Assembly (NCBI GenBank): GCA_024278755.1
Contig: JAJRSO010000012.1
Span: 1 to 64,000, forward strand
Reading direction: 5' to 3'
Length of the DNA stretch: 64,000 bases
From: Calditrichota bacterium
GTDB lineage: Bacteria > Calditrichota > Calditrichia > Calditrichales > Calditrichaceae
Below the pieces are notes generated by a model. That model was not told the origin of the DNA. It ran no database searches and saw nothing but the letters and a program-made list of their open reading frames with translations. This document shows, piece by piece, positions 21,102 to 52,212 of this stretch (within the stretch, counting starts at the first letter, position 1; every line of letters begins with the position of its first letter). The translations under genes were made by a program, and so were the position numbers.

Positions 21102-21542
21102 ATGGAAAAACAAAAGACCAGACAATTTAAACTTAAAGTTGCCAGCTCCCCGGAAAATCTGGGTACAATCCGCGAGTTTATTCATGATATTTCGCTTAAT
21201 GCCGGGTTTGATTCCGAAACAGCCGGCCAGATAGAACTGGCCGTAGACGAAGCCTGTACCAATGTGATTAAACATGCCCATAAATACGAATACGATAAAT
21301 CCATTGACTTGCTTGTTCTTCTTGATGCGCAGAAAATTACGGTTACTATTACGGATCGCGGACTGGGATTTGATGTAAACAAAGTGGCAAAACCGGATCT
21401 GCAAAAATATATTCACGAAGCAAAAAAAGGCGGGCTGGGGATTCATCTGATGCGCAGTTTAATGGATGAAGTCCAATTCGAGTTTAATCCCGGCGTAAAA
21501 AATCAGGTTACGATGGTTAAATATTTTAAGAATAATAAATAG
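21102..21542 (+). CDS. RsbW/SpoIIAB-like anti-sigma serine kinase
   Basis: A 146-residue GHKL ATP-binding protein. The N-box is ELAVDEACTNVIKHAH, G1 is DRGLGFD and G2 is GGLGIHLMRSLMDEV. It is predicted to phosphorylate the adjacent STAS protein and to sequester a sigma factor or another output partner. No sigma factor gene is in the window, so its target is elsewhere or is not a sigma factor. It follows the STAS gene by 43 bases and precedes a second phosphatase by one base. Confidence 0.92.
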   Translation: MEKQKTRQFKLKVASSPENLGTIREFIHDISLNAGFDSETAGQIELAVDEACTNVIKHAHKYEYDKSIDLLVLLDAQKITVTITDRGLGFDVNKVAKPDLQKYIHEAKKGGLGIHLMRSLMDEVQFEFNPGVKNQVTMVKYFKNNK

Positions 21543-21543
21543 T

Positions 21544-25815: not shown

Positions 25816-25822
25816 TAGTCCT

Positions 25823-32530: not shown

Positions 32531-33247
32531 TTAGTCCTTTTTTAAAGAGGCTTCGTAACGACTCACAATACTATTGCGGATATTCTGTATTAATTGCTGT
32601 CGCTGCTCATATTTATAGTTTTCGGTGGGCACCGGTTCTAAGAACTCAATCTGAATAGTTCCCTTGTGCAAATGTAAATCCTTCTTTTGCATAATTTCCA
32701 TAGCGCCGGTTAAAACCATGGGCGCAATGGGGATGCCCCCTTTTATGGCCAGTACAAATCCGCCTTTTTTAAAGGGCTGAATGTTACCGTCTTTCGTGCG
32801 CGTACCTTCTGGAAAAATAATAACGGAAACACCTTTTTTAATTTCTTCGATGGCCTTATCGAGAGACTGACGCGCTTTTTTACTGTTGCCGCGATCAATG
32901 GGAATCATGCCTACGGCACGCATACCCTGTGCAAATACCGGAATACGGAAGAGTTCCTGCTTGGCCAGGAAACGGGCCGTTCCGGGAATAACGCTCAGAC
33001 AGGTCATAATATCAAAGGTGCTTTGATGGTTAGACATGAACAGGTAAGATTGATTTGAGTCCAGCCGTTCGATCCCTTTTACCCGCACCTGAATACCGGA
33101 TATTTTTAGAATGGAGCGCGCCCAGGAACGAACGATATTATTGGTTCGCTCCGAATAGGGACTTATTAATCCGGAAATAATGGCAATAACCGAATAAAAA
33201 AAGGTTACCATCGACGAGGCAAAAATAATCCATGCGGAACGAAACAT
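32531..33247 (-). CDS. plsC: 1-acyl-sn-glycerol-3-phosphate acyltransferase
   Basis: Makes phosphatidic acid from lysophosphatidic acid at the inner membrane. An N-terminal helix (about 5-28) anchors it. The HX4D motif is SNHQSTFD (His74, Asp79), and FPEGTRTKDG is the glycerol-phosphate site (block III). GGIPIAPMVLTGA is block IV. Its 238 residues are typical. It lies between serS and upp with short gaps, so they are probably co-transcribed. Confidence 0.92.
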   Translation of the reverse strand: MFRSAWIIFASSMVTFFYSVIAIISGLISPYSERTNNIVRSWARSILKISGIQVRVKGIERLDSNQSYLFMSNHQSTFDIMTCLSVIPGTARFLAKQELFRIPVFAQGMRAVGMIPIDRGNSKKARQSLDKAIEEIKKGVSVIIFPEGTRTKDGNIQPFKKGGFVLAIKGGIPIAPMVLTGAMEIMQKKDLHLHKGTIQIEFLEPVPTENYKYEQRQQLIQNIRNSIVSRYEASLKKD

Positions 33248-33260: not shown

Positions 33261-34544
33261 CTATTTGTAGATTCGCTTGATACTATCGATGCCGCCCATG
33301 TACGGACGCAACGCTTTGGGTATGATTACCGTCCCTTCATCCGTTTGATAGTTCTCAAGCAACGAAACCATCAGGCGCGACGTAGCCAGTCCGGAACCGT
33401 TAAGCGTATGTACAAATTCCGGTTTGGCGCCCTTTTCCCTGCGGAAACGGATATTGGCGCGCCGGGCCTGGAAATCCATAAAATTACTGACGCTGGATGC
33501 CTCCAGCCATTTATCTTCGGCCGGCGACCAGGTTTCGATGTCGTAACATTTTGCAGCCGCAAAACTGAGATCGCCACTGCACAAAAGCAAGATGCGGTAG
33601 GGAATTTCCAAAAGGTCCAATATTTCCAACGCTTCACCCAGCATCTGTTCATGTACCTGCTCTGAATCTTCGGGACGGACAAAATTTACCATTTCCACTT
33701 TATTAAACTGGTGTACCCGCAAAAATCCGCGGGTCTCTTTTCCGTATGAACCGGCTTCCCTGCGAAAACAGGCCGAATAGGCGGTGTATTTTATGGGCAG
33801 TTCTTCCCCGTCCAAAATTTCATTGCGGTGCATATTGGTAACCGGCACTTCGGCGGTGGGAATTAAAAAGAGATCGTCTTTTTCGGCAAAATACATATCG
33901 TCCTGCAATTTGGGAAGCTGGGCGGTGCCGTACATGCTGTCCCGATTGGCGACAAAAGGCGGAAAGATTTCGGTATAGCCGTGCGTATCGATATGCAAAT
34001 CGAGCATAAAATTAATCAGGGCGCGTTCCAGCCGGGCGCCCAGTCCTTTGTACAGCGGAAATCCGCTGCCGGCAATTTTACCGCCGCGCTTAAAATCCAG
34101 GATATCCAGCTGCTCACCCAATTCGATATGGTTAAGCGCTTTAAAATCAAATGCCGGAATGGTTCCCTGTCTGCGCACTTCCACATTGGCTGTTTCATCC
34201 TTACCGATGGGTGTATCGGGATGCGGCATATTGGGAATCCGCGACAAAAGATGATGCAATTCGGATTCAAGCGCGGAGAGTTTTTCGTCCAGCTCTTTAA
34301 TCTGCTGCGAAATCTGCTTGGTGGATCGAATGACATCCGAAGCGTCTTTGCCCTCTTTTTTATAGACGGAGACTAATTTGGAATTTTCATTACGCTGTTT
34401 TTTTAATTCTTCGGTTTTAAAAATGAGTGCGCGCCGTTCTTCGTCTATTTTCAGAACCAGATCGGCGTCCCCTTTTTCGTTCTTTGCGGCGATGCCTTTT
34501 TTTACCAGGTCCGGATTTTCCCGGATGAATTTTATATCGAGCAT
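33261..34544 (-). CDS. serS: Serine--tRNA ligase
   Basis: A class II aminoacyl-tRNA synthetase of 427 residues. An N-terminal tRNA-binding helical arm (about 1-105, with a charged coiled coil at 35-100) is followed by the catalytic domain. Motif 2 is FRREAGSYGKETRGF and motif 3 is LNGSGLATSRLMVSLLENYQ. The residues SACFRREAG and the Glu-rich serine pocket are conserved. It is first gene of the serS-plsC-upp group. Confidence 0.97.
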   Translation of the reverse strand: MLDIKFIRENPDLVKKGIAAKNEKGDADLVLKIDEERRALIFKTEELKKQRNENSKLVSVYKKEGKDASDVIRSTKQISQQIKELDEKLSALESELHHLLSRIPNMPHPDTPIGKDETANVEVRRQGTIPAFDFKALNHIELGEQLDILDFKRGGKIAGSGFPLYKGLGARLERALINFMLDLHIDTHGYTEIFPPFVANRDSMYGTAQLPKLQDDMYFAEKDDLFLIPTAEVPVTNMHRNEILDGEELPIKYTAYSACFRREAGSYGKETRGFLRVHQFNKVEMVNFVRPEDSEQVHEQMLGEALEILDLLEIPYRILLLCSGDLSFAAAKCYDIETWSPAEDKWLEASSVSNFMDFQARRANIRFRREKGAKPEFVHTLNGSGLATSRLMVSLLENYQTDEGTVIIPKALRPYMGGIDSIKRIYK

Positions 34545-35292: not shown

Positions 35293-37362
35293 CTATTTTT
35301 TTTTACTGTGGTAAAGAGCTTTTAATAGAATTTCTATGTCCATTGGCAGAGAGTGGTTTTTTAGATACTGGTATTCCTGTTTCTGCAATACTTTTTCGGT
35401 TTGATTGCTCCGGCCGGTCTGCTGCACAACCCCGGTTAGACCCGGTTTATAATCCAGCGCCGAATAGCCTCTATTATGGGCCGATAGCGGTGCGCCAACA
35501 AAAGAAATACGTCCCCGCAAAATTTCAAAGACATTTAAAAAGAACCTTAGAAACCCTTTTTCCGTGCCCCATAGAATGCGCTGTTCGTAACGACTGTTTT
35601 CATGAATCGTTTTTAGGGTTAGTTTCTTTCGCTGTACAAAAAGCATAACAATTCCCGGAAGTATCATCGGCACAAACAGTATGAGAGACAGCGCCAGATC
35701 AAAGATACGTTTAATAAACAGGTTAAATGTTCTGCCGTAATTATAATCAATATCCACCAGCGGGATATCCTGAAAACGTTCCACCGACGATTTACTGATC
35801 ATATATTCCAGATGGCTGGGCACAATTTTAAACTCGATATGCTGGCGCTGCACATGGGCCATTGTACCGAGGATTGTTTCGTAGGAAATATTATGCGTAG
35901 GAAAGATAACCATATCGGTTTTACGCATATTTAAAAAATCGCGCAAACGGTCGATGGAGGTTACCGCGGGCACCCCGTTAAACTCCCTGCCAATGTCCGC
36001 TTTATTTAATGTAACAATTCCTTTTATCTGAATGCCCGAATCAACCTGTTCGTTTAGCTTATCAATTAAACTCAGAGATTCTTCATCACAGCCCACAATC
36101 AGGGTACGTTTCGAGAAAAAAGAGTGGCCGGGCGAAGCCTTTCGGCTTAAAAAGCGCAGCACAATACGCCAGGTTAGCATAAGCGTTGTGCTTACTGCGG
36201 CAGTGACAAGCACGACCAGCCGTGAAAAGGCAAACTGATTTAAAAAGAATGTCAGAGCCGAAGCGGAAATAAATGTAACAAGATTGGCCGAAATTGTCTT
36301 TCGCACAGAAAACCGTTCGCGTTCGACAATACCGAAAAAAAGCGCGCTGAAAAAGAAAAAAACAGAGGTAATGATATTCACAACAATATGATGATTAAAA
36401 AAATCGCTTATCCTAAATCCGCTCTTCATTTCGAAACGAATATAAAAACTAAAAAACATCACCAGATTTAAAATCAGTAAATCCAGCAGCAACGGGAAAT
36501 ACCGTTTCACCAGATTTTTTGTATAAATGATTACTCCGCGAAAGATAACGCCGAGCAGGATGAGCCATTTAAAAGGGGTTATATATTTTTTCTGGTAGTG
36601 TTTTTTATAAAACAGATAAAGGGAACGGTTAAACGTTATCACATAATCGAGGTTATTGATTTTTGTGCTTTCGCCTTTGTAATGGATGATTTGAGAATCG
36701 GGCACATAAAATATTTTTCCGCCCGCTTTGTTGATGCGGTGGCAGTAATCGATATCCTCGCAATACATAAAAAAATCTTCATCCAGTTCTCCAACCTGTT
36801 TAACAATTTCGCTACGCATCATCATAAAGGAGCCGGAGATGGCTTCCACCTGATTCATTTCATTTTCATCAAGGTAGGTTAAATTATATTTTGCAAAGAT
36901 ACGGCTTTTAGGAAAGAGCCGGTCTAGGCCGAGTAGTTTCCAAAAGGCCGTTAACGGGGTGGGAATGGAGTGGCGGCAGTCCACCGAAAAAGTACCGTCC
37001 GGATTTAAGATTTTACAGGTTGCCGCAGAGGCTTGCGGAGAAGATTCGAAAAACTTCAGCAGTTTTGTAAAGGTATCTTCCTGTACCACCGTATCGGGAT
37101 TGAGCAGAACGATAAACGCCCCCTTTGCTCTGCGCAGGCCCACATTATTCCCGGCGGAAAAGCCGACATTTTTCTTATTTTCTATTAAGATGACTTCGGG
37201 AAAACGTTCCTTTATCATCTGAACGGAACCGTCCACGGAGGCATTATCCACCACAATAATTTCCGAGGGAATATTCTGCAGCGCCCGGCCGGCGGAAAGT
37301 AGCGCCTGTTCCAGAAAATCCCGGACATTGTAATTGACAATTATAATGGAAATTGTTTTCAT
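35293..37362 (-). CDS. GT2 glycosyltransferase fused to degenerate WcaJ-like phosphoglycosyl transferase module
   Basis: 689 residues. An N-terminal GT2 domain (about 1-255) of the rhamnosyltransferase type has IIVVDNASVDGS, LLNPDT (nucleotide-sugar/metal site) and the CEDIDYCHR acceptor-site motif. About 262-405 contain membrane helices, about 415-530 a CoA-binding-like Rossmann domain (LIVGCDEESL), and about 545-689 a bacterial sugar transferase domain beginning FIKRIFDLALSL. In that last domain the catalytic Asp-Glu of the DELPQ motif is replaced by Arg606-Phe607 and VGPRP reads VGAPL, so I expect no phosphosugar-transfer activity. PGLTGVVQ is retained. The ATG overlaps the upstream fused gene's stop by one base. 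It is probably an acceptor-extending enzyme held at the membrane by the dead module. Confidence 0.88.
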   Translation of the reverse strand: MKTISIIIVNYNVRDFLEQALLSAGRALQNIPSEIIVVDNASVDGSVQMIKERFPEVILIENKKNVGFSAGNNVGLRRAKGAFIVLLNPDTVVQEDTFTKLLKFFESSPQASAATCKILNPDGTFSVDCRHSIPTPLTAFWKLLGLDRLFPKSRIFAKYNLTYLDENEMNQVEAISGSFMMMRSEIVKQVGELDEDFFMYCEDIDYCHRINKAGGKIFYVPDSQIIHYKGESTKINNLDYVITFNRSLYLFYKKHYQKKYITPFKWLILLGVIFRGVIIYTKNLVKRYFPLLLDLLILNLVMFFSFYIRFEMKSGFRISDFFNHHIVVNIITSVFFFFSALFFGIVERERFSVRKTISANLVTFISASALTFFLNQFAFSRLVVLVTAAVSTTLMLTWRIVLRFLSRKASPGHSFFSKRTLIVGCDEESLSLIDKLNEQVDSGIQIKGIVTLNKADIGREFNGVPAVTSIDRLRDFLNMRKTDMVIFPTHNISYETILGTMAHVQRQHIEFKIVPSHLEYMISKSSVERFQDIPLVDIDYNYGRTFNLFIKRIFDLALSLILFVPMILPGIVMLFVQRKKLTLKTIHENSRYEQRILWGTEKGFLRFFLNVFEILRGRISFVGAPLSAHNRGYSALDYKPGLTGVVQQTGRSNQTEKVLQKQEYQYLKNHSLPMDIEILLKALYHSKKK

Positions 37363-39833
37363 TATTTTGCTTTCATGCCAATAAAGAAAATAACCACCGA
37401 GCGCAAAATAATCCGTAAATCAAATGTCAGCGACATATTTTCCAGATAATATAAATCCAGTTTTAACTGTTCTTTTTTGTAGCGCAAGGCCTCTTCGTAC
37501 CGAAAACGCACCTGCGGCCAGCCGGTTAAACCGGGCCGGATTTGAAAACGTCGGTTGTAAAACTTTATTTTATTTCTGAGTTCCGCGGCTGTTTTTTCAT
37601 CTTCGGGCCGGGGGCCGACAAAACTCATCTGCCCCAGAAAAATATTCATCAGGGCGGGAAATTTATAAAAACGAGTGCTGTAAAGCAGCCTGCCCAGCGC
37701 ATTGCGCCGGCCGTTAACTTCGGTGTTCAAATTTAACATTCCAAAACGCACACCGTTTTTCCCAATCATATTATCGATCCGAAACAAGGGTGAATTTCCG
37801 GTTAAAATCTGGGCCGCCAGTGCAGCTAAAAAGAAAGGCGTCAGCAGCAGCAGCAACAGAGCGGACAGGAAAATATCCATGACCCGTTTTACCGCCCACT
37901 GCCATAAATGCATAGAATCTGGAAAGAGCCGAATCAGAGGATGCCCGATGACCTCCGCTGATTTATGGCCGGAAATCAAATCGTACATTTTTGGTAAAAT
38001 TTTAAAGATCACCGCCGCATTTTCGGTGCGGGCCGCAATATTTAAAATTTCATCCCGCGAACGCTCGTTGATGGCGATGATTACCTCTTCCACGCCCTGT
38101 GTGCGAATAATTTCCGGAATGTCGTCATAGACGCCGAGACAGTCAAGTCCGTAAAATTTTTTCGTCTGAATTTCCCGGGATACGAAGCCCACAAAATCAT
38201 ATAATAAATGGGGATTTGCGGAAATATCCTTTAGCATTTTACGGCCCTTTTCCGAGGCGCCGATGAGCAGGGTTTTATGCGGCGCATATTCCAGAATGGA
38301 AAGTGTTTTTTCAATCTGAATTAAAACAATGCGTCCCAGACTCACGAGAAACAGCAGAACGGCAATGTAAATGAGCAGAGTTAGCCGCCCCTCCGAAAAG
38401 ATCACCCCCTGTTCCATGGTCATCAGAAATAAAACAGCGCCTCCGAACAGAATCACTTTACCCGATGAGCGCAGGTGGTCAAAACGGGAAACATCCCAGC
38501 GCAGGCTGTACAAATCGTTTAATACAAATAAAATCAGCCAAAAAAGCGTTAAGATAAGCGGCAGCGGCGTCGCCCAGAATTTCGCAAAAGGAATCATTTT
38601 ATCCGGATGCAGCAACCCGGAATTGTATTTAATCCACCAGACCGTAAATAACGACCCATTGATCATAATCGTATCACTGACAAAAAATATAAATTTATGT
38701 ATAAAACGGCGCATGGAAAGCGGTGCAATCTCTTTTTTAACAGCCGCCATTTCCTCGTCGCCAAAATACATTTTCGTCCGTTGCGCTTCGAGATAGCCCA
38801 CCCGTTTTAGACTTAAGAAAGAAACCGTTAAAACAGAGGCAAGTAAGATAGATGAAATAAAGGCCGATTGCACCGTAATTTGCCAGGCAGTAAGTGCAAA
38901 TACGAGCGAGGCAAGATAAATAATATGCACCGCCTGTTTATGCGACAGGCCGAGATAAATCAACCGATGGTGCAGGTGATCTTTATCGGGCTTAAAAGGG
39001 TGGCGGCCTTTATTCAAACGACGGAAAAAAGCGATGGCCGTATCGCCGGCGGGAATGGCCAGAATAATAAGCGGCAGGATAAAATTAATATTCCCGGGCG
39101 GTTTTTCAAATACTTTGAGTGAAAGTACCGCTAATAAAAGACCCAGAAACAGCGAACCGGTATCGCCCATGAATATTTTGGCCGGATGGTAATTATAGCG
39201 TAAAAATCCGATGGAACCGGCCGCAAGCGAAAGGCTTAAAATAAAGACGGCGCTGTTTTGATACTGCCAGGCAATAAGCGCAATAACCGCCGCCGCAATG
39301 GCGCTGAATCCCGCCGCGAGGCCATCCAGACCATCCAGCAAGTTCACCGCGTTACTCATCCCAATCAGCCACAGATAGCTTACCGGAACCGTGAGGATAC
39401 CCAGCGCAACCGGCCGAAAAAAGGGCACCTGAATACTTTCTACACGACAACCTGAATAGATGAGTATTGAAACAATGATAAACTGGCCGAATACCTTCTG
39501 CCCCGCATTCATTCCCTTTAAATCATCATAAGCGCCCAGTCCGACAATCAGCACGGAAGAAATCAAAAGACCAAAATAAGAATGAATAATTGTTTCTGCC
39601 GCCTGCGGGAAGAAGAAAAAAGAAAGCAGAACGCCGCCGATAAATCCGGCAAAAATACCAAAACCGCCCATATGCGGCATAAAGGTCTGATGCACTTTGC
39701 GCGGCCCCGGTTCTTCCCCGATTTTATATTTAATCGCCAGCATACGTACGCGGCCGGTTACCAGCAGAGAGACAGACAGCGCAAGCAAAAACAGCAGTAG
39801 AAGATACAAATATGTATTTTGATTTAGCGGCAT
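37362..39833 (-). CDS. WecA/MraY-like phosphosugar transferase fused to degenerate WcaJ-like module
   Basis: About 823 residues from ATG 39833, preceded by an AGG site; an in-frame ATG at 39905 would overlap the upstream gene by 71 bases and is less likely. Residues of about 5-350 form a polytopic UDP-HexNAc:undecaprenyl-phosphate transferase with intact motifs: AYDDLKG (Asp103-104), NAVNLLDGLDGLA (161-173), FMGDTGS (221-227) and HLHHRL (about 287-291). A second membrane region, a CoA-binding Rossmann domain (about 516-616) and a sugar transferase domain (about 645-823) follow. The latter keeps SFVGPRPED and RPGLTGWPQV but has Tyr723-Lys724 in place of Asp-Glu, and NLNT in place of KFRT. The N-terminal half probably starts repeat-unit synthesis; the C-terminal half looks catalytically dead. 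Confidence 0.9.
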   Translation of the reverse strand: MPLNQNTYLYLLLLFLLALSVSLLVTGRVRMLAIKYKIGEEPGPRKVHQTFMPHMGGFGIFAGFIGGVLLSFFFFPQAAETIIHSYFGLLISSVLIVGLGAYDDLKGMNAGQKVFGQFIIVSILIYSGCRVESIQVPFFRPVALGILTVPVSYLWLIGMSNAVNLLDGLDGLAAGFSAIAAAVIALIAWQYQNSAVFILSLSLAAGSIGFLRYNYHPAKIFMGDTGSLFLGLLLAVLSLKVFEKPPGNINFILPLIILAIPAGDTAIAFFRRLNKGRHPFKPDKDHLHHRLIYLGLSHKQAVHIIYLASLVFALTAWQITVQSAFISSILLASVLTVSFLSLKRVGYLEAQRTKMYFGDEEMAAVKKEIAPLSMRRFIHKFIFFVSDTIMINGSLFTVWWIKYNSGLLHPDKMIPFAKFWATPLPLILTLFWLILFVLNDLYSLRWDVSRFDHLRSSGKVILFGGAVLFLMTMEQGVIFSEGRLTLLIYIAVLLFLVSLGRIVLIQIEKTLSILEYAPHKTLLIGASEKGRKMLKDISANPHLLYDFVGFVSREIQTKKFYGLDCLGVYDDIPEIIRTQGVEEVIIAINERSRDEILNIAARTENAAVIFKILPKMYDLISGHKSAEVIGHPLIRLFPDSMHLWQWAVKRVMDIFLSALLLLLLTPFFLAALAAQILTGNSPLFRIDNMIGKNGVRFGMLNLNTEVNGRRNALGRLLYSTRFYKFPALMNIFLGQMSFVGPRPEDEKTAAELRNKIKFYNRRFQIRPGLTGWPQVRFRYEEALRYKKEQLKLDLYYLENMSLTFDLRIILRSVVIFFIGMKAK

Positions 39834-39834
39834 T

Positions 39835-41553
39835 TTAGTACCTAAACAGAATCCCAAAATAGAATTCATTCCGTGTTTCTTTTTGCCGTCCTGTTTTTTT
39901 ATCAATCAAATGATAGCGGGCGCACAAATATAAATCATTAAAAATTTCGTATTCCGCATCGACACTGTAACGACGTTCGGTTGTGAGAGTGCCTTCGAGA
40001 AAACGGCGCGTGTCCTTATAATCTGTGGCGTCCAGCTGACTTCCGTACGGCACTCCCCTGCCCAGTAAAATATCGCCGCCGATGTTTTCATCCGCATAAT
40101 TGGCGCCGTGTTTGAACTGGCGGAAAGTGAATCCGCTACTAAATCGCTGATGCCATTCTTTTTTCAGACGGACATACAACACTTCGGAATTAGGGCCGGC
40201 CCAGTGTCCCAGCGAACGATAATCGCTGGTGTAACTGTTCACCCGATATTTATGGGTATACACCCAAGGCATAATGGCCGTATATTCGGCACGCAGGGAG
40301 AGGTTGGCCAGGCCAAAGGGATCGGTCAGATAAAAACCGGTCAGCAGGGCTTGTTTGTTGCCGAACCAGTCGCTACCGATTTCACTCATTCGAAACTCAT
40401 CGAGGAAGACCGTGCTGTACAGTTTCATCCCCGGATAGGGCAGGACTTCCACATCCACCGAAATGGTGGCATTATCGCGATCCCGCAGTTTATGCTGCAC
40501 CGCCCGGTAAAAATTAAAGGGAAGAAGGTAGGCCCAGTCCACGTAACGATTTCCGTAAATAAAATTCTCGTTCAGGCCAAAAGTAAGCCAGGGCGCCGGA
40601 CTGATTTCAAGGCGCTGTGCGGCCAGCCATTTATCGGGATAGAGTCGTTGGCCGTCGGTGAGCGTATCCTGTGGAAAAGACTGCAACTTGCCGTGCAGAG
40701 AGATGAATTTCACCCAGCCCCAGTCTTTGCCTAAACTAAGATAGGGATACTGCTCCGGATTACGCGATAAAATCAGTTTACCGGATTCTCCGTAGCCCCA
40801 TTCCACTTCCTGCTGGGCCAGTTGAATATCGAGATAATCCGTATGCCAGTACAATTCTCCGCCGGTGCGGTCGGAATAGCGGGCGCCGCTTTCACCGGGG
40901 CGTTCGCTCCAGGCGCCTTTGAGTATTGGAATATTCAATAAATAGGATTCGTCTCCGCGCAGGCCATGTAGTTCGGTTTCCGCCCGGTAGCCAAATGTCT
41001 CATTTAACGTGCCACGAAAAATAAAGGTTTGCCAGCTTGCCGAACGGGAAACATTATCCGAGCGTTGCTCGTAGGTCAGTCCCTGTTCATAATTAAAATA
41101 AAAATCATCCTTCCCTTTTTCGTATATATAGACATAATTTCTTTCTTCGGGATGGGCCTGTTTAAAATAACGCCGGAAATCCTTTTTAAAATTGCTCCAG
41201 CTTGCCAGAACAGAATACCAGTTCTGCTCCCCGGGCGTCTGTTCATATTTTCTCTGCGGTTGCAGTTCCCTGCGGTAATCGAGCAGAAAATCCTGCAGGC
41301 GGCGGCGATCGATGTGGGTAAGCCTATCTGTCTGCGGAATCAGTTCTTTAAGATAGCGGCTGATTTCATTGCGCGAGAAGGGTTTGATACCGTTGTGTAC
41401 GTGGCTGAGAAAACCGAGGGTTTCCATACGGTCGAGATACGGATAGATGGGATCGTCAAGTCCGACTGAAACGGGTGATGCATTTAGTGCGGATAGTAAA
41501 AAGAAATTTATTATTATTAGTGTGGTATTTTTTTTTAAATTCATAAGGCCCAA
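39835..41553 (-). CDS. Wzi-like outer-membrane capsule assembly protein
   Basis: 572 residues. An N-terminal signal (about 1-26) is followed by a short helical region (PYLDRMETLGFLSHVHNGIK, about 37-56) and then amphipathic beta strands ending in a C-terminal aromatic (FYFGILFRY), as in outer-membrane barrels. The composition and the GDESYLLNIPILKGAW and DWAYLLPFNFYRAVQHK stretches resemble capsule assembly Wzi-family proteins, which tether capsule at the surface. Its stop lies one base before the start of the fused WecA-like gene. It is first in a probable three-gene transcript with the two fused transferases. Confidence 0.72.
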   Translation of the reverse strand: MGLMNLKKNTTLIIINFFLLSALNASPVSVGLDDPIYPYLDRMETLGFLSHVHNGIKPFSRNEISRYLKELIPQTDRLTHIDRRRLQDFLLDYRRELQPQRKYEQTPGEQNWYSVLASWSNFKKDFRRYFKQAHPEERNYVYIYEKGKDDFYFNYEQGLTYEQRSDNVSRSASWQTFIFRGTLNETFGYRAETELHGLRGDESYLLNIPILKGAWSERPGESGARYSDRTGGELYWHTDYLDIQLAQQEVEWGYGESGKLILSRNPEQYPYLSLGKDWGWVKFISLHGKLQSFPQDTLTDGQRLYPDKWLAAQRLEISPAPWLTFGLNENFIYGNRYVDWAYLLPFNFYRAVQHKLRDRDNATISVDVEVLPYPGMKLYSTVFLDEFRMSEIGSDWFGNKQALLTGFYLTDPFGLANLSLRAEYTAIMPWVYTHKYRVNSYTSDYRSLGHWAGPNSEVLYVRLKKEWHQRFSSGFTFRQFKHGANYADENIGGDILLGRGVPYGSQLDATDYKDTRRFLEGTLTTERRYSVDAEYEIFNDLYLCARYHLIDKKTGRQKETRNEFYFGILFRY

Positions 41554-43066: not shown

Positions 43067-43663
43067 TTAAAAATTATTCTGAGCAGAAGTAGTATTATTC
43101 AGCCGGCGTAAAGTTATTTCTTTCAAAATTTGTAAATAATCATCTGCCAGTTTATTGCGGTCAAAATGCCGGCTGATAAAATGTCTGCCTTTTCCCCCCA
43201 TGCGATGCAATTCTTCGGGATTATTTTTCAGAAATAAAATATTTTTAGCAAGGTCATCCGGATTTTCGGGTTCAACAAAAAGACCGGCGTCTACTTCTTC
43301 TACAAAAGTCCGCGCCTCACCGTCTACCATCAGCAGTATAGGTTTGCCCATTGCCATAATTTCGAAAAGTTTTGAGGGCAGTGCATTTTTAAACAGATCA
43401 ATTTTACGCAGAGTCACTAACAAAACATCAGCTAAAGCATAAAACTCCGGGGTATGCTCTTTTGCAGATTTACCTCGAAAGGTAACATTTTTGAGCCCCA
43501 GCTGTGAGTACGGTGACATCGGCACCCCGCTCTACCCAACTGCGTGATAACTCATATACACAGGCAGAAGGCGCCCCCATTTCCGGAGGGCCGATCTAAA
43601 GAGGATTACAACGGTTTATTGATACCAGTAGAATAATGATAATCGAACCTGAACATTTTTCAT
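43067..43663 (-). pseudogene. Broken GT4 glycosyltransferase (internal deletion)
   Basis: The C-terminal 150 residues of a GT4 enzyme are readable from about 43505 down to 43067 (LGLKNVTFRGKS, FKNALPSKLFEIMAMGKPIL), including the nucleotide-sugar end. Upstream, in a different frame, an N-terminal piece reads PPEMGAPSACVYELSRSW and VERGADVTVLT (about 43589-43503). The normal middle of some 200 residues is missing, and the pieces join out of frame. An AGGAG site and ATG at 43663 survive, followed by an in-frame TAA after 15 codons. An internal start at 43525 could still make the 152-residue C-terminal fragment, which would lack the acceptor domain. Confidence 0.75.
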
Positions 43664-43681
43664 TCTCCTGGCTCGTGTTAG

Positions 43682-44641
43682 TTAAAGATTTCCACGATAC
43701 GCACTCAATAGTATTTTGTCCGGAATTGGGTTGTCTGATTTCCGACCTAAAAAATAATATCCGGATGCGGCATCATAAACACCCTGTTTTTTATTGAGCA
43801 CTTTATCAAAATACTTTAAAAAAAAGGAGGTAAAATTCGTAAATACTTTAATAAAAATTCTTAAATTTTTATTACTTGTAAAACTAAGTAAAAAATAGCG
43901 GTAACTCCAGGCCAGCGCCATTCCCGGCCCGCCGGCTGCTCCCCGCTTTATTTCGGAAAAATGGCGAAACAGTCTACGATGCCCCAGTTCGGTGTATCGG
44001 GTAAAATCGTGGCTTCCCATATGCACCTGTTGCATAAAAGGTGTTTCGGCATATACAATTCCACCGTTCTTTAGAACCCGATGCATCTCGCTGACGCAGC
44101 GCGGCGGATCGATTACATGCTCCAAAACAGCCTGGGCAATAACGCCATCGAAAGCATCATTATCAAAAGGCAGATCGTGGGCATCGCAAATAAGGGCCGT
44201 CCGTTCACCAAAGGAAACATCTGTTTCCAGAATCTGAAGCAATTCATTTTGTAGCAGGAGGTTCATTCCCTCTCCCAGAATGCTGCCGCCAATTACTAAG
44301 ATTTTAGGATGCGAAGAAATCTGGAGAACAGATTCCGCAACCATCCGGTAATTATTTGCCGCGGGGTAGTTGCTGCTGATGGAAGGGATTATTTTTTTTA
44401 GTGCATTTTTAACAGAAGACTGCTCATGCGCAAAAGCAGCGGCACTTCTGCGTGTAAAATCTACAATTTTAAAAAGGCTATTCTGCTCATTTATCAGAAC
44501 GGGAATTCCGTCTAAAACGGGAAATTTCCGGGCACAGGAAGCGTTTTGGCATTTCAGTACCTTCCCCGTTTTTTGTAGTTTACTTTTACAAACCGGACAA
44601 CGTAGTAGCGCAAGGAATTCTTTAGATAATTTGTTTTTCAT
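43682..44641 (-). CDS. SAM-dependent methyltransferase with N-terminal zinc ribbon
   Basis: 319 residues. The N-terminal Trm112-like ribbon has LRCPVCKSKL and later CQNASCARKFP, four cysteines in all (about 14-41). A class I methyltransferase follows, with ILVIGGSILGEGM as motif I, DAHDLPF as the acidic loop and VLEHVIDPPRCVSEMHRVLK as the motif IV region. It probably methylates a sugar or a lipid-linked saccharide, given its place between GT4 genes, but it could act on another substrate. It lies 16 bases downstream of the first GT4 gene. Confidence 0.85.
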   Translation of the reverse strand: MKNKLSKEFLALLRCPVCKSKLQKTGKVLKCQNASCARKFPVLDGIPVLINEQNSLFKIVDFTRRSAAAFAHEQSSVKNALKKIIPSISSNYPAANNYRMVAESVLQISSHPKILVIGGSILGEGMNLLLQNELLQILETDVSFGERTALICDAHDLPFDNDAFDGVIAQAVLEHVIDPPRCVSEMHRVLKNGGIVYAETPFMQQVHMGSHDFTRYTELGHRRLFRHFSEIKRGAAGGPGMALAWSYRYFLLSFTSNKNLRIFIKVFTNFTSFFLKYFDKVLNKKQGVYDAASGYYFLGRKSDNPIPDKILLSAYRGNL

Positions 44642-44657
44642 CGTTGTTCTTTAAAAT

Positions 44658-45827
44658 CTATCTTCCCGTTATTTTAACTTCCTTAGCAGATTTCGAAAAA
44701 TATCCATGATAGAGTTTGTCCAGTGTCGAAACTGTTTTTTTTATTGAAAAATCGTTTTGTGCTCTATCGTAACCCAAATGTCCAAGTTTTTGGCGTTGTG
44801 CAGGACTCTCTAATAATTGAGAAAGCTTCTCATAAAACGCATCGGGCGTATTCGGTTTGCATAAAAAGCCGGTTTCATTTTCGATAACCAGTTCTCTGTT
44901 ACCTTTAATATCCGAAACCACAACCGGAAGTTTTCGTACCATTGCTTCTAAAATGGCAATGGATAATCCTTCCCACAAAGACGTCAGCATAAAAACATCG
45001 GTGATACTTAGAATTTTATCAACATCATTTCTCCAACCCAGTATTTTAATGTTTTTTTCACACCGACGGGCGGTAATCATCCGTTCCAGTTTACTTCTTA
45101 ATTCACCATCTCCAATCAGGAGGAAATAGACATCTTTACGATGCTCTAATATTTTTATAGCTGTCCGAACAAATACCTCAGGCGCCTTCTGCCGCCATAG
45201 TCTTCCCACCTGAGTTACAACCAGTCCATCCGCCGGAATATGAAGATTTTCTTTAAATCCGGAAAGGTTTGGTATCCGTTTATTTTCTTCCGGAGCAATA
45301 CCATTGTATACTTTAATAATTTTATTTTTTTTAATGATTTTATGTTTAACGGCATAATCCATATCATATTGATTAACGGAAATATGCAGGTCGGTATATT
45401 TTGAGACCAACCGTTCAATAGGAATAAATATGGTCTTTGCTGTTAATGATGAAAATTCGTGAAATGAGAATCCATGAATCGTATGAAAAATTACAGGGAT
45501 TCCGGCATGGGAAGCGGCAATACGGCCAATTACCCCACTCTTTGAAGAATGCGTATGTACAATATCCGGTTTTTTCTCTTTGAGTATACGTGTGATGTCT
45601 TTAAGCGCAGAAAAATCTTTTAAAGGATTTACATTGCGCACAAGAGACGGAACCGTAATAAACTGAATATTCCATTCCGTTAAAATATCCGTTAATTCGC
45701 CTTCCTCTTTACAAATAACCGTAATCTCAAATTTCTTTCTATCCAGCCGGGTGATTAAATCGACCATAGCTTTTTGTACGCCGCTCATTATGGGTAATAG
45801 CTGAATATGAAATAGTTTGATGGGCAT
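44658..45827 (-). CDS. GT4 family glycosyltransferase
   Basis: 389 residues with GT-B fold. The N-terminal half has HIQLLPIMSGVQKAMVDLI and KPDIVHTHSSKSGVIGRIAA, the classic GT4 opening. The C-terminal half has VGRLWRQKAPEVFV and the ExFGxxxxE-type segment LWEGLSIAILEAMVRKLPVV. It is expected to add one sugar of the polysaccharide repeat; the donor cannot be told. The coding DNA is visibly AT-richer than the fatty-acid genes. It is separated from the next GT4 gene by about 87 bases. Confidence 0.9.
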   Translation of the reverse strand: MPIKLFHIQLLPIMSGVQKAMVDLITRLDRKKFEITVICKEEGELTDILTEWNIQFITVPSLVRNVNPLKDFSALKDITRILKEKKPDIVHTHSSKSGVIGRIAASHAGIPVIFHTIHGFSFHEFSSLTAKTIFIPIERLVSKYTDLHISVNQYDMDYAVKHKIIKKNKIIKVYNGIAPEENKRIPNLSGFKENLHIPADGLVVTQVGRLWRQKAPEVFVRTAIKILEHRKDVYFLLIGDGELRSKLERMITARRCEKNIKILGWRNDVDKILSITDVFMLTSLWEGLSIAILEAMVRKLPVVVSDIKGNRELVIENETGFLCKPNTPDAFYEKLSQLLESPAQRQKLGHLGYDRAQNDFSIKKTVSTLDKLYHGYFSKSAKEVKITGR

Positions 45828-45914
45828 TATCTATCCTGATGAATAACTGTGGTCTAATATAAAAAATAATTAGGATATGATTCAATTAAAGTAGTAAATG
45901 AATGACTAATCCGG

Positions 45915-47015
45915 TTATAAAATATTTTTATTTTCCAGTAGCCCTATATAAAGAGCCTGCGTTTTAGTAGTTAATGCGTTCACAGAATATTTTTCCACAA
46001 TGGTTCGCCGGGCAGCTTTCCCAAATGTTTCCCGCATCTGGGGCTGCCTAAAAAGGGAACGAACTGCATTAGCAAGCTGTTCCGCGCTATTCGATTTAAT
46101 AAGAAATCCCGATTCTCCATCCTTAATCACATTAGGGATACTGCCCGATGCAGGTGCAATGACCGGAAGTTCCAATGCCATTGCTTCCAGCACTGAAATC
46201 GGAAGCCCTTCAAAAATCGAAGTAGAAAGATATATCTCTTTTTGCTGCATTATTTTTTTTACCGTTTCATTTGGTTTGGCTCCACAAAGGTGAATGTTCT
46301 CCTGGAGTCCAAGAGAAGTTATTTTTTGAATAAGAGGATTAAATAGCGGCCCATCTCCGATGATGGTGCAACGTATATCAGCATACTTTTTTTTCAGAAT
46401 ATTTACAGTATCTATCAAAAGGTCGTAGTTTTTTTCTTTCACCAGTCGGCCGGTCGAAACAATACTGTATTCTTCCTTTTCAACTAAAGGATTAGGACTA
46501 AAAAAGTCACAATCAATTCCGTTTGGAATTAAGCAGATTTTATCTGCGGCATAGCCCGTTTTCAGCATAAATTCATGTACGGATTTGGATATGCTGATAG
46601 TTCGTATATTCAGTTTTTTGGATAGATAATCATCTAAGCGGTATAAAAAACTGCCACTTTTAGGAAGTATTTCATGATGCCGCGTGCTGACAATTACCGG
46701 AATGCGCAACGCCCGTCCGAACAGTTTTCCTATTATTCCGGCATGAACAAGATGTGTATGCAATACCTGAAATTTATTTTCCCTCATATATGCAAATAGT
46801 TTAAGCAGCGATAAAAAACGAAGGCGGCCTTTCCGGGAAAAATTCATAATTTGAATATCTACTTCCCAGCCGTCTAAAAAAGAACCCGTTTTGTAGAAAT
46901 AGGCCAGGTGGTATTCAAATGTTTCCGTATCCGCATTTTTTAAAAAAGATTTTAACAGCGATTCGGCACCGCCTGGTTCCATACTATTTATTAAATGCAG
47001 AATTTTGATTTTCAT
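45915..47015 (-). CDS. GT4 family glycosyltransferase
   Basis: 366 residues with GT-B fold. N-terminal HLINSMEPGGAESLLKSFL and VLHTHLVHAGIIGKLFGRAL match sugar-transferring GT4 enzymes of the PelF/WbaZ style. The C-terminal domain carries VSTGRLVKEKNYDLLIDTV and FEGLPISVLEAMALELPVI. It is one of three consecutive GT4 genes and is expected to build the repeat unit. The 34-base gap to the next GT4 gene suggests a single transcript. Confidence 0.9.
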   Translation of the reverse strand: MKIKILHLINSMEPGGAESLLKSFLKNADTETFEYHLAYFYKTGSFLDGWEVDIQIMNFSRKGRLRFLSLLKLFAYMRENKFQVLHTHLVHAGIIGKLFGRALRIPVIVSTRHHEILPKSGSFLYRLDDYLSKKLNIRTISISKSVHEFMLKTGYAADKICLIPNGIDCDFFSPNPLVEKEEYSIVSTGRLVKEKNYDLLIDTVNILKKKYADIRCTIIGDGPLFNPLIQKITSLGLQENIHLCGAKPNETVKKIMQQKEIYLSTSIFEGLPISVLEAMALELPVIAPASGSIPNVIKDGESGFLIKSNSAEQLANAVRSLFRQPQMRETFGKAARRTIVEKYSVNALTTKTQALYIGLLENKNIL

Positions 47016-47049
47016 AATGTTGATCTCAAGTTCAGAACGGCCCGTTTAA

Positions 47050-48228
47050 TTATTCAAATACCTGGTTGCATCTGGATATAATTTCCTGCGATAATTTCTG
47101 CCAATTGTGATTCTCTTTCGTATAATTATATCCATTCGTAGCAATTGTTTCCGCTTCGGTATTATAGTTGTTCATAAGCCATTCTATTTTTTCTGCAAGT
47201 AATGCGGGCGAATCAGGTTCTACAACAATGCCGCATCGATGTTCCCCAACAAATTCAAGGCCAGGTAAATCACTGCAAATTACCGGACATTTATGTGCCA
47301 TATACTCAAATATTTTTACCGGAGAAATTCCAGTGACTTCGTTCCTTCTTCGTATTAATGGCGCTAAACAAATATCTGCATTTTTATAGTATGGTTCTAA
47401 CTTATCCCTATATACGGCGCCAATGAACTGCACTTTCTTCTCTAAATTATTCGTCCGAACCAGATATTCAAACAACTCTTGATGCGGCCCTTCCCCAATA
47501 ATTTTTAACTTAAAAAGAATATTAGTATTTAAAAATGTAAGTGCTTTAATAAGGATATGAATGCCTTCTCTTTTATGTAGAAGCCCCACATACAACAATT
47601 GAAATTCTCCGGAGAGCAGATCTTTTGTAAAAACTTTTTTAACACTATTTTCTTGTTCTCTAAACGCAAACCCATTTGGAATAACCGAAAATTTGCTTTC
47701 CTCAAGGCCAAACGTATTTATAAAAAAGGATTTCATATTTGTAGTTATCACTCTAATATGTAAAGCATTGTTAAATGAAAACTTTTCTAATTTTCGCTCC
47801 AAAACGCCAATACTGTTAATTGATGCTTCTTTATAGTCTTCTAAAATCAGGCTGTTTGATTCAATAAATAGCTTTTTATTAAATAACCTGCTGAATAATG
47901 GGACAGCAAAGTTTAAATTTGACTGGCGTAAATATATTCCTTTAACTGTGTCTGAAAAATTCAATACCAGTAATTTAAAAAAAAGAGCTAGTTCGAAAGA
48001 GAGAAGTTGAAATAATGTCCCCCATTTTTTAATTCTTTTTATATGAAAATAGGGTACTATAACAAAATTATAAAGCTCTTCATCTCTGATTTCTGCAGGA
48101 AGCTCACGCACAAATACTCTAATATATTTATAGTTTAATTTTAAGGTATTGTATAAATCAGTAAAATGTTTTACCGCGCCGGAGTTTTCTCTAAGATCGA
48201 TATTCCCTATTAAATAGATATATTTCAT
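47050..48228 (-). CDS. GT4 family glycosyltransferase (AT-rich)
   Basis: 392 residues. It is less typical at the N-terminus (YIYLIGNIDLRENSGAVKHF), but the C-terminal half is clear GT4: LLYVGLLHKREGIHILIKAL, and FEYMAHKCPVICSDLPGLEF with the donor-site Glu. The gene is rich in A and T and uses many Lys, Asn and Ile codons, more than genes flanking the locus, which suggests a separate origin. Its start overlaps the stop of the ligase/polymerase gene by four bases. Confidence 0.85.
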   Translation of the reverse strand: MKYIYLIGNIDLRENSGAVKHFTDLYNTLKLNYKYIRVFVRELPAEIRDEELYNFVIVPYFHIKRIKKWGTLFQLLSFELALFFKLLVLNFSDTVKGIYLRQSNLNFAVPLFSRLFNKKLFIESNSLILEDYKEASINSIGVLERKLEKFSFNNALHIRVITTNMKSFFINTFGLEESKFSVIPNGFAFREQENSVKKVFTKDLLSGEFQLLYVGLLHKREGIHILIKALTFLNTNILFKLKIIGEGPHQELFEYLVRTNNLEKKVQFIGAVYRDKLEPYYKNADICLAPLIRRRNEVTGISPVKIFEYMAHKCPVICSDLPGLEFVGEHRCGIVVEPDSPALLAEKIEWLMNNYNTEAETIATNGYNYTKENHNWQKLSQEIISRCNQVFE

Positions 48229-49523
48229 GTTTCGTTTAATTCCAGCTTTTTAGGTTTTACAGTAATTGTGCCTGCTGCAAACCAAAGTAATGGATTATGT
48301 GCAATATCACCGCTAAATTGGGCATTTAAAAAACCAAATAAAAAGATCAGCATACTGATATCATAAAGATATTTATAAGGCCCAGTATTATTTTCTTTTC
48401 GAAGGTGAAACAATCTGGTAAAGATATAAATACAAAAGGCAATAAACAGCCCCATTACAAGGAGGCCATTTTCCATCCCAAGTTCCAGAAAAATATTATG
48501 CGGATATTTAATAACTTCATTAACAAGATCTTTAAAACTCCCGGTACCGGTTCCAAGAAATGGATTAACCCAAATTAATTTTGCAGCCTTAATTGCAGAA
48601 TAGATTCGTAATAAACTACTGGGATCATCAGACAGATTCTGAAAACGAGAAATTATTTTTGGAAGCATTACAAGGGTTGCCCCAGCCACGGTAAACGTAA
48701 AAACAATTACGGCTATTATTTTTTTATACAAGGCTCCTCTGTAAATAATTACTAAATAGATAAATGCAGTAATAACATAGGCCACAACTGGGCCTCGGGA
48801 ACCGGCTAAATTTAGGAAAAGGATTGATACTGCAATCAAAACAAAAGAAACCAATTTGCTAACCACTGACTCTGCAGTTAGATATTGATATAAGAAAAAG
48901 AAGCTTAATAACCCTGCTTCACGCCCAAACCATATTGAGCTTAAAGTACCGGACGGATCGAATCTCTCTGGTATTCCGTTATCAATTAATAACAAAACAC
49001 ATATAATAAAAATTAAAATACCTGCCGTAACACCTTGTTTATATATTGTATCCAATGATTTTTTTGAAGCAAAAAAATAAAACGGCAGTATAAAAAAGGT
49101 CACATTATAATAAAAATATAGAAACGACTTAAGCAACCCATATGTTCTGCTGGGTGAATAACTTGCTTGAAAAAATAGCAAGAGACCGATTCCCAGCACT
49201 ATAATTAATGGAAATAGCGGTTTCGGTTCTTTTTGAAGATTTTTAAAATACAGAACAGCTAATGCGCTACCGAGTAAAATTGTATTCACTACCGAAACCG
49301 AAACCAAAGTTAAATCGAGATAATTAAAATAGGCAAAAAAAAGAACTGAATCTGTCAGAAATATCGCGACGGCAAACTCCGGATAACGGATGGTCCAAGT
49401 AATTGAAAAAACAATTATAAGGCCATACAAAGGTATGGTGTCCGCTAAAAACAGACTACCCAAAATCGGAATTCCCAGGAGTAAAGCTATTTTTAGATCC
49501 GTTTTCTGCAACTTAACTCTCAT
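48225..49523 (-). CDS. O-antigen ligase / Wzy-like polymerase
   Basis: 432 residues with about ten to twelve membrane helices. A long extracytoplasmic loop (about 290-350) contains VNPFLGTGTGSFKDLVNEV and KYPHNIFLELGMENGLLVMG, the signature of the Wzy_C/O-antigen ligase family. It polymerises or transfers lipid-linked polysaccharide units on the periplasmic face. Together with Wzx and Wzz it points to a Wzy-dependent pathway. A 200-base gap without a gene (49524-49724) separates it from wzx. Confidence 0.85.
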   Translation of the reverse strand: MRVKLQKTDLKIALLLGIPILGSLFLADTIPLYGLIIVFSITWTIRYPEFAVAIFLTDSVLFFAYFNYLDLTLVSVSVVNTILLGSALAVLYFKNLQKEPKPLFPLIIVLGIGLLLFFQASYSPSRTYGLLKSFLYFYYNVTFFILPFYFFASKKSLDTIYKQGVTAGILIFIICVLLLIDNGIPERFDPSGTLSSIWFGREAGLLSFFFLYQYLTAESVVSKLVSFVLIAVSILFLNLAGSRGPVVAYVITAFIYLVIIYRGALYKKIIAVIVFTFTVAGATLVMLPKIISRFQNLSDDPSSLLRIYSAIKAAKLIWVNPFLGTGTGSFKDLVNEVIKYPHNIFLELGMENGLLVMGLFIAFCIYIFTRLFHLRKENNTGPYKYLYDISMLIFLFGFLNAQFSGDIAHNPLLWFAAGTITVKPKKLELNET

Positions 49524-49724
49524 TTAAAATCTCTTCGCACAAAGCTACAATCCACCAGGCTCAAACACAGACTTAGACTACAAAAATACCGCCATTCCGA
49601 TTCTTTTTCAACAACGGGTAAAAACGAGGTCCTATGCATCTAATCTCTTTTCTGAACAACTTCAATGTTAGCGGTATTAGTTTTACGGCCATTACAAGAT
49701 GCCAGAAGATGCACGCTCGTTACC

Positions 49725-51014
49725 TTAGCCAGTTGTCTTCATGGTTCCCGCCGAAAAATGGTAAACCATCCCCAGTAAAACGGCATAATGCAGCGATAGC
49801 GTCAGGCTAACCGTCCATAAAAACTGCTCGATTGAAAGATGAAACTGCCAGGCTATCCAAAAAACAGCAATCGTTATCAACAGCATAGCAAACTGCCAAA
49901 TCATATTTTCCATCTGTTTTTCAAAAGCAATGACTACCGTGCTTAACGGCGTTACAACAAATCGCGCAAAAAACAGGGGCAGTAAAATTTGCGCATAGCT
50001 TCCTGCAGCCAACCAGTTTTGACCAAAGACCAACACAAAAAGATCCTCGATAACAAAATAAAGCGGAACAAACAGCGCCAGGCCTAATAATAAAAGCCTG
50101 ATAAAAATTCGTTTAAACAATCGCCTCGCACTGCCTTCCTCTTTTCGGTTTTCGCTGGCCTTCTTCAAAAACACCTGGGCGAAAGCGCTGCTCACCAAAC
50201 CGAGTGGCAGTCCCAGAACCCGGTACACCATGGCATAAAACCCCAAAATTTGCGATGCATATAAAATGGAAATAAAAAAATTGTTAATATTTTGCGTTAC
50301 CGAATTGGTAAATAAACCGGGCAGTGAATATTTAGGAAATCGGATATAGCGTTTGGCAAGCCGTATATAATCAACCCGTTTTAGATCATTCCACAATTCC
50401 CTTCGATTGATAAATACCCCGCTTAAAGGAACATTAGCTGCCATATAGGATAAGAGCTTGCCGATAATCAATCCGGCCGGTCCGTTTTTTAATAAACCGA
50501 TTCCCGCCTGTCCAGCCGCCGAAGTAAGCGAACGGTAAATATTTGCCTTGGCAATGACGCCGTATTTTTCGTAATTGAGATTTAAATAGTTGAGTACATT
50601 AAACAGGCCCATAAAAAAAGTAACCAGCGGAACAAAATACAACCAGCCGGCAATGGAGAGATTATTTAACAGCCCCGCAATTTCATCTTTAAACAGCAAA
50701 ACCAGAATCAAAACGATGAAACTAAGAATGAGCGTGATAAAAAAGGCCAGAATCGCAAGCGTCAGGGAATCTTTTTCATCTTCCGGGAGGACAATCGCCA
50801 GTTCATATTTACCTGTGGCGGAAATGCTTAAAATGGCAGTAAGAGCCGAAAACAGAGCCAGTACTCCAAAATCTTCCGGGGTATAAAGTCGGGCCAAAAG
50901 CGGCGCAATGACCACGGGAATGATCTGGGCGATACCGGTACCGCTCATCAGGGTTAACACCTGGCGGGTAAAAACGGATTTTTTATTCTTCAATGTTAAA
51001 TCCCGGATGAACAA
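49725..51014 (-). CDS. Wzx-like polysaccharide flippase
   Basis: 429 residues with twelve or so membrane helices, of the polysaccharide-transport MATE/MOP type. The N-terminal segment MSGTGIAQIIPVVIAPLLARLY and TPEDFGVLALFSALTAILS is diagnostic of the O-antigen translocase group. It flips undecaprenyl-linked repeat units to the periplasm. It sits eight bases downstream of the Wzz gene in the same transcript. Confidence 0.9.
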   Translation of the reverse strand: MFIRDLTLKNKKSVFTRQVLTLMSGTGIAQIIPVVIAPLLARLYTPEDFGVLALFSALTAILSISATGKYELAIVLPEDEKDSLTLAILAFFITLILSFIVLILVLLFKDEIAGLLNNLSIAGWLYFVPLVTFFMGLFNVLNYLNLNYEKYGVIAKANIYRSLTSAAGQAGIGLLKNGPAGLIIGKLLSYMAANVPLSGVFINRRELWNDLKRVDYIRLAKRYIRFPKYSLPGLFTNSVTQNINNFFISILYASQILGFYAMVYRVLGLPLGLVSSAFAQVFLKKASENRKEEGSARRLFKRIFIRLLLLGLALFVPLYFVIEDLFVLVFGQNWLAAGSYAQILLPLFFARFVVTPLSTVVIAFEKQMENMIWQFAMLLITIAVFWIAWQFHLSIEQFLWTVSLTLSLHYAVLLGMVYHFSAGTMKTTG

Positions 51015-51022
51015 AAATATCC

Positions 51023-52192
51023 CTAAGAGAGATGTATTTTAAAATGAGACAGAATGCTTTTCAATTTTTCATACCGGAGTGGTTCATTGTTTTTAAGGGT
51101 CCGAATTGATTCCAATATAATAATATAAATGAACATCAGTAACATTATAAAGCCGGTGGCCCCAATGACTACAAAGGCCCGTTTCGGTTTGTATTTATAT
51201 TCCGGAACATCCGGCGGGTCCAGAATCACAAAACTGGGCTGGCTTTGGTTCTCTTTTATCTTTGCCTGCTCGTACTGCGGCGTTAAAAATTCCAAAACCT
51301 TGGCGCCAATCTCAAGTTCACGCTTTAAGCGATAGTAGGTAAACGCATGCAGAGATACTTTTTTTAGCGGAAGCAGCACCGAGTAATCCGGTGTGGAGAA
51401 TTGCCTTTTATTCAATTCTTTTTCGGCCACTTCGATTTGGATTTTTAAATCCCGCAGTTTGGGCGAATTTTTGTCCAGTACACGGCTAAGATAATCGTAT
51501 TGAATACGGATTTCCATTAACTGCGCTTCCTGGGTAGCCTGTGCTTCAACGGTGGCGGTAATCTGTTCATCTAAGAGAAAAACGTTATACTTTTGCTGAA
51601 ATTGGTGCAATGAATCTTCGAGCGCTTTTATGCGGTTTTGTGCTTTGTTATAGGCCGCTTCGATAAAACTGCGATTGTTTCGTGCCTCTTTGGATTGGAT
51701 CTCAATATTCATTTCATTGGCTTTGTTAAGCATAAAGGTACATATTTCATATGCCTTCTGCGGATCCCCTTTGTAATCGAAGGAAACGGTTATGGACTGA
51801 TCGTCATAATTCATTTCCGTCGAAATATTGTCTGTAAGCATTTCCCGTGTTTTAAAACGGTATTCTTGTTCATACACTTCCTGTAGCTGGAATTTATCAA
51901 TTACATCGTCTAAAAACACCCGGCTGCCGAAGATGGAATTTAAACGCTCATTGCCAAGCACTCCTTGCATTCCGAGATCAATGGGTACGTTTCCGAGAAC
52001 CGCGCTCATATCAATATTCAGTCCCCCGCTTTGTTCCGGAAAAAATACTTTTGCGCTGGAACGGTACCAGAGCGGCAAAAGAAAGCTGATAATCAGCGAT
52101 AAGATTACGGCCGAAAAGAACGTATAAATCAATAGTTTTTTATATTTCAGAATAGTTTCTAAAAAATCCAGGAAATCGCGTTTTTGTTTCAT
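51023..52192 (-). CDS. Wzz-family chain-length determinant
   Basis: 389 residues. A membrane helix near the N-terminus (about 18-40) and another near the C-terminus (about 335-360, RAFVVIGATGFIMLLMFIYI) flank a long periplasmic coiled-coil region (about 160-300). The proline-rich segment before the last helix (PPDVPEYKYKPKRA) is the Wzz hallmark. It controls polymer length and couples to the export protein. No tyrosine kinase domain is attached, so any kinase is separate. It lies 20 bases downstream of the export gene. Confidence 0.9.
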   Translation of the reverse strand: MKQKRDFLDFLETILKYKKLLIYTFFSAVILSLIISFLLPLWYRSSAKVFFPEQSGGLNIDMSAVLGNVPIDLGMQGVLGNERLNSIFGSRVFLDDVIDKFQLQEVYEQEYRFKTREMLTDNISTEMNYDDQSITVSFDYKGDPQKAYEICTFMLNKANEMNIEIQSKEARNNRSFIEAAYNKAQNRIKALEDSLHQFQQKYNVFLLDEQITATVEAQATQEAQLMEIRIQYDYLSRVLDKNSPKLRDLKIQIEVAEKELNKRQFSTPDYSVLLPLKKVSLHAFTYYRLKRELEIGAKVLEFLTPQYEQAKIKENQSQPSFVILDPPDVPEYKYKPKRAFVVIGATGFIMLLMFIYIIILESIRTLKNNEPLRYEKLKSILSHFKIHLS

Positions 52193-52212
52193 CTTCTCTC
52201 TTCCGTAATCGT

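Follow-up and report, generated by a model that had tools for sequence, protein, structure and literature searches.

PNPTs and PHPTs carry out one reaction in two unrelated ways. Unexpected monotopic-polytopic PGT fusions have reportedly been found by O'Toole, Imperiali and Allen in 2021; like the protein analysed here, they would join both PGT superfamilies in one chain. A PGT fusion as such is therefore already known, and the original prediction that the kind of fusion is undescribed is not supported. Those fusions are not known to show phylum-wide loss of the catalytic dyad, reciprocal loss or a GT2 partner that bears another dead module. Literature searches did not turn up an inactive PHPT of this type, a fixed or reciprocal inactivation or paired dead modules.

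The large monotopic PGTs WbaP and WcaJ (PDB 8t53) have the same order of four helices, CoA_binding_3/DUF and PGT domain as the protein P0001 analysed here, but P0001 has Tyr-Lys in place of Asp-Glu and a preceding PNPT. The polytopic PGTs WecA, TagO and MraY (PF00953) share their fold and all catalytic motifs with P0001, but P0001 carries approximately 450 extra residues. The large-PHPT scaffold serves as a point of protein-protein regulation in the EpsZ-EpsW system of Myxococcus (PMC12802240), but EpsZ is catalytic, whereas the PHPT domain of P0001 lacks the dyad.

Domain structure of the fusion and its locus

The window is the whole stretch of Calditrichota DNA that was analysed, 64,000 nucleotides in length. 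A domain with its catalytic residues is termed live below, and one without them dead. The fusion gene contains the following features.

37362..39833, minus strand: PNPT-PHPT fusion gene P0001, 823 aa, ATG at 39833 (open frame, Pfam)
38829..39812, minus strand: live PNPT (WecA/MraY-type) domain, residues 8-335 (Pfam Glycos_transf_4, MraY fold, intact catalytic residues)
39522..39527, minus strand: PNPT Asp103-Asp104, within the DDLKG motif (sequence motif)
39315..39353, minus strand: PNPT motif NAVNLLDGLDGLA, residues 161-173 (sequence motif)
39153..39173, minus strand: PNPT motif FMGDTGS, residues 221-227 (sequence motif)
38961..38978, minus strand: PNPT motif HLHHRL, residues 286-291 (sequence motif)
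38301..38714, minus strand: bundle of four transmembrane helices in the large-PHPT module, residues 374-511 (AF2 secondary structure; conserved in the alignment)
37914..38285, minus strand: CoA_binding_3 (DUF) domain, residues 517-640 (Pfam, AF2 model)
37380..37913, minus strand: dead PHPT (Bac_transf) domain, residues 641-818 (Pfam, dyad alignment, structure match)

A TTG located 72 bases 5' of the ATG sits within the upstream gene and is therefore an unlikely start. P0001 matches Glycos_transf_4 (PF00953) at residues 87-240 (E 4e-40, 137.8 bits) and Bac_transf (PF02397) at residues 649-816 (E 3e-34, 118.6 bits), both against a curated Pfam cut-off of 27, and CoA_binding_3 at residues 460-614. 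The catalytic Asp/His motifs of the PNPT (DD, NxxDxxDG, FMGD and HHR) are all present. An AlphaFold2 model built from 33 orthologues has a mean pLDDT of 79.6. In Foldseek comparisons its N half has an MraY-like fold, with a TM-score over the target of up to 0.81 (5jnq), and its C half is WbaP/PglC-like, with TM-scores over the target of 0.59 (8e37) and 0.44 (8t53). The frame, the Pfam matches and the model with its Foldseek matches thus confirm the predicted fusion with a full set of PNPT motifs. The Pfam and AF2/Foldseek matches also indicate that the C half is a complete large monotopic PGT, consisting of four helices, the DUF/CoA domain and the catalytic-type domain. The beta-hairpin of the WbaP-type DUF is not evident in the model, in which this region is of low confidence.

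The only other PNPT in the genome groups with MraY-length sequences of relatives in the PNPT tree. The genome also encodes other PHPTs with intact DELP. One of them (L004:7-1992) is a 661-aa PHPT with intact DELPQ and an unusual N-terminal part, whose domain match begins late (model position 34); similar frames of 626-696 aa are present in G001, G166 and G179.

The fusion gene adjoins a polysaccharide locus.

39835..41553, minus strand: Wzi-like capsule assembly protein, directly 5' of P0001 (Pfam; the same upstream neighbour in many relatives)
43067..53484, minus strand: rest of the Wzx/Wzy-type locus, with Wza-, Wzz-, Wzx- and Wzy-like proteins, glycosyltransferases and a methyltransferase (Pfam; 43067-43525 by sequence only)

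The PNPT half of P0001 is the only plausible initiator encoded in this Wzx/Wzy locus. An AAA_14/DUF4143 ATPase gene (41629-42963) is inserted into the locus and separates the Wzi gene from the glycosyltransferases. Elsewhere in the window, at 18576-27457, three long frames resemble, by eye, PP2C-type phosphatases with sensor domains and are followed by a receiver-GGDEF protein; they possibly form a signalling cluster.

The PHPT dyad and selection on its domain

Two replacements are located in the active-site region of the PHPT domain.

37662..37667, minus strand: Tyr723-Lys724, replacing the catalytic Asp-Glu (alignment to PglC)
37722..37733, minus strand: NLNT (residues 701-704), replacing KFRT (sequence, alignment)

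The Asp-Glu dyad of PglC (8g1n, chain positions 97-98) aligns to Y723-K724 of P0001, exactly at the predicted bases 37667-37662, and the alignment of the fusion sequences contains no substitute acidic pair that is invariant in the PHPT domain. The predicted loss of the dyad to Tyr-Lys, together with the change of KFRT to NLNT, is thus borne out. The fusion is found in 35 of 40 Calditrichota genomes, two of which are single-contig, and a sequencing error or misjoin is therefore rejected as its source. The dyad position is occupied by Tyr-Lys in 34 of these 35 fusions and by Asn-Arg in one; Asp-Glu is found in none. Five Calditrichota genomes are without the fusion: in two of them (G036 and G007) a contig breaks off at the partner gene described below or at the end of that gene, and the remaining three are drafts with a completeness of 72-84%. 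One genome (G005) contains two fusion copies, the second of which (L121:7598-10057) is nearly identical to the copy of another family (G016), suggesting transfer or contamination. Two Calditrichota fusions (L145:2253-4796 and L146:8048-10603) have FMGEVGS for FMGD in the PNPT half, by which an Asp of a catalytic motif is replaced by Glu.

For close pairs (dS below 1), the dead PHPT domain has a dN/dS ratio of 0.03-0.13, as compared to 0.08-0.09 for the live PNPT, and no deletion of the PHPT domain is found among the 35 fusion sequences across Calditrichota. On these ratios, the domain is under purifying selection and not in decay. Among 42 columns with a conservation of 90% or more across 56 live PHPTs, the Calditrichota fusions keep 24 and have lost 13. 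The lost columns include R689, K701, R709, R718, D723 and E724, which cover the active-site region and the dyad, while the kept columns include K649, P666 and D805, which align to Lys7, Pro24 and Asp169 of PglC. R650, which aligns to PglC Arg8, is invariant in the fusions, and PRP (741-743) and PGxTG are retained. In PglC, Lys7, Arg8, Pro24 and Asp169 are known to determine the re-entrant membrane fold (PMC6133551). These results suggest that the active site is gone but the fold is retained, because the dyad and cation columns are lost and the fold determinants are kept. Some relaxation relative to the PNPT is visible in the sequences: the mean identities of PHPT and PNPT are 0.48 and 0.48 in the Calditrichota fusions, as compared to 0.78 and 0.63 in the fusions with two live halves.

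The partner gene, the second phylum and the origin of the fusion

The gene that follows P0001 carries a second module of the same kind.

35293..37362, minus strand: partner gene P0002, 689 aa, in which a GT2 glycosyltransferase is joined to helices, a CoA_binding_3 domain and another dead PHPT module (Pfam, relatives)
35305..35727, minus strand: this second dead PHPT module, P0002 residues 546-686, without Asp-Glu (Pfam, dyad alignment)

The GT2 partner is the next gene on the same strand in all 31 Calditrichota fusion loci in which the contig reaches far enough, and its PHPT module lacks the dyad in 26 of 26. Full-length relatives without Asp-Glu are present in four other phyla (G084, G093, G097 and G117), and three further relatives (G040, G046 and G119) have wholly lost the PHPT domain. 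In the phylum of G093, hereafter the second phylum, eight genomes each have a frame of 688-716 aa with the same partial Bac_transf match, the architecture of which is verified for G093 alone; a GT2 partner adjoining the fusion was looked for in this phylum and not found. The recurrent element is the helix-CoA module, since it is also fused to PNPTs and to GT2s without any PHPT. Five proteins of approximately 600 aa (L151, L152, L153, L154 and L186) consist of a PNPT, helices and CoA_binding_3, with NLLDNMDGL and GGKDHSSHRL motifs and without a PHPT. In the PNPT tree, the PNPT-helix-CoA_binding_3 proteins group apart from the others as one clade.

In the second phylum, both sets of catalytic residues are intact in the fusions of 12 genomes. 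In four others (G166, G179, G187 and G218), the PHPT dyad is intact (IDE-type) and the PNPT catalytic residues are lost: the equivalents of D103, D104, N164, D170, D224, H286 and H289 are missing, and the PNPT halves score 22-29 bits, around the Pfam cut-off of 27. The dead-PNPT clade is nested inside the fusions of the second phylum in the PHPT tree with a support of 100/100. One genus (g170) contains both a live-live species (G230) and a dead-PNPT species (G218); the genomes are incomplete, and the two copies could be paralogues. The dead-PNPT genomes retain other intact PNPTs, except G218 (77% complete), just as Calditrichota genomes have further intact PHPTs. Judged by the catalytic residues, the Calditrichota fusions and the dead-PNPT fusions have lost opposite halves, and the loss is reciprocal. 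The original prediction, whose observation holds and whose interpretation is partly supported, missed these live-live and reciprocal forms, as well as the second dead module in the next gene. Just 5' of the live-live fusions of the second phylum are small PHPTs with Asn-Glu for Asp-Glu (e.g. KINELPQL), in which the nucleophile is lost (L171:9670-10365, L175:6256-6975, L178:175-810 and L179:4945-5619).

Two genes downstream of P0002 serve as synteny anchors.

33261..34544, minus strand: serS, common to the second phylum (gene-order comparison)
32531..33247, minus strand: plsC-like acyltransferase (gene-order comparison)

The PNPT tree places the fusions of both phyla on one side of a branch with a support of 100/95, against 37 other PNPTs. 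The PHPT tree also groups them, with a weaker support of 85/85; a quick PHPT tree that includes the long-branched GT2 modules and small PGTs places the Calditrichota rows apart. Eight Calditrichota loci have the order fusion, GT2 gene, serS and plsC, and eleven second-phylum loci, among them that of the dead-PNPT genome G166, have serS directly 3' of the fusion. The grouping in the PNPT tree and the serS-plsC order in both phyla suggest that one ancestral fusion probably lies behind both, and independent fusions in the two phyla are disfavoured by the same results. Outside Calditrichota, the fusion is found in G093 alone among 106 sampled genomes, and it is found in none of 82 genomes of G084's phylum. 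The phyla of G097 and G040 are each represented by a single genome.

Possible role of the dead module

P0001 as a whole is probably best explained as a WecA-type initiator with a pseudoenzyme PHPT module for non-catalytic interaction. The PNPT half would transfer HexNAc-1-phosphate from a UDP-sugar to undecaprenyl phosphate, and its product would start the repeat unit of the polysaccharide made by the Wzx/Wzy system encoded upstream. The intact PNPT, the only one of the genome that is not MraY-like, counts for this assignment as initiator. The C-terminal large-PHPT module has putatively lost catalysis and retained the membrane fold and the dimerising parts, and may act as a docking or dimerisation module. 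The near-invariant Tyr-Lys counts against a purely non-catalytic module, because it could reflect a retained ligand-binding or even an altered catalytic role. The WbaP-type beta-hairpin that is not evident in the low-confidence region of the model and the GT2 partner that was not found beside the second-phylum fusions also weigh against this explanation. The predicted retirement of the PHPT half is supported as far as a non-catalytic module is concerned, given the phylum-wide Tyr-Lys, the purifying selection and the retained fold determinants; scaffolding and regulation, both of which had been proposed, are not distinguished by sequence.

An altered catalytic role, with Tyr723 as the nucleophile and a different metal site, is very improbable. 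Tyr-Lys in 34 of 35 fusions is a stronger conservation than decay would give, but not only the Asp and Glu of the dyad but also several cationic residues of the active site are missing, one fusion has Asn-Arg, and monotopic PGTs are described as working with an Asp-Glu dyad, Mg2+ and a covalent intermediate in the active site (PMC10519829). Only slightly more credible is a C-terminal half that survives as a passive remnant heading for deletion. The PHPT evolves faster relative to the PNPT in Calditrichota than in the live fusions, but its dN/dS is near that of the live PNPT, more than half of the conserved columns are kept (24 of 42) and all 35 sequences retain the domain. A regulatory sensor, in which the old active site would still take up undecaprenyl phosphate, UMP or a nucleotide sugar and control the PNPT allosterically, is unlikely, although less so than either of these. 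The retained PRP and PGxTG and the near-invariant Tyr-Lys look like signs of a pocket that is still in use, and a regulatory protein in Myxococcus acts on a large PHPT by binding to the DUF and the catalytic domain (PMC12802240), but the active-site region has lost R689, K701, R709 and R718 along with the dyad, and judging by the GT2 partner and the forms without a PHPT, it is the helix-CoA part that matters.

For the preferred non-catalytic interaction module, pairing is the likeliest use, because the GT2 partner bears the same kind of dead module. WbaP dimerises via its helices and DUF (PMC10942596), parts through which EpsZ is regulated as well (PMC12802240). The dead modules of P0001 and P0002 may likewise pair, as homo- or heterodimers, and would then keep the pathway's first two enzymes side by side on the lipid carrier. 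Of these steps, the pairing between the P0001 module and that of the GT2 protein is the least certain and is proposed tentatively. Live-live, live-dead and dead-live forms of the fusion all persist, so that a benefit other than a double activity seems to preserve it. The whole history is somewhat less likely than not: a single fusion would have been followed by loss of opposite sites, the dead halves would have stayed folded, and the dead module would be a dedicated dock for the initiating and second enzymes.

If this is true, the dead module, which is also present on the GT2, would be an assembly device of lipid-linked glycan synthesis. The survival of what is probably one fusion in live-live, live-dead and dead-live forms is a natural experiment, in which the common feature is the joined scaffold and not a second activity, and it makes testable the idea that PGTs are assembly platforms for later glycosyltransferases. 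It is also a warning that, in these phyla, some proteins annotated as Bac_transf are pseudoenzymes at key positions.
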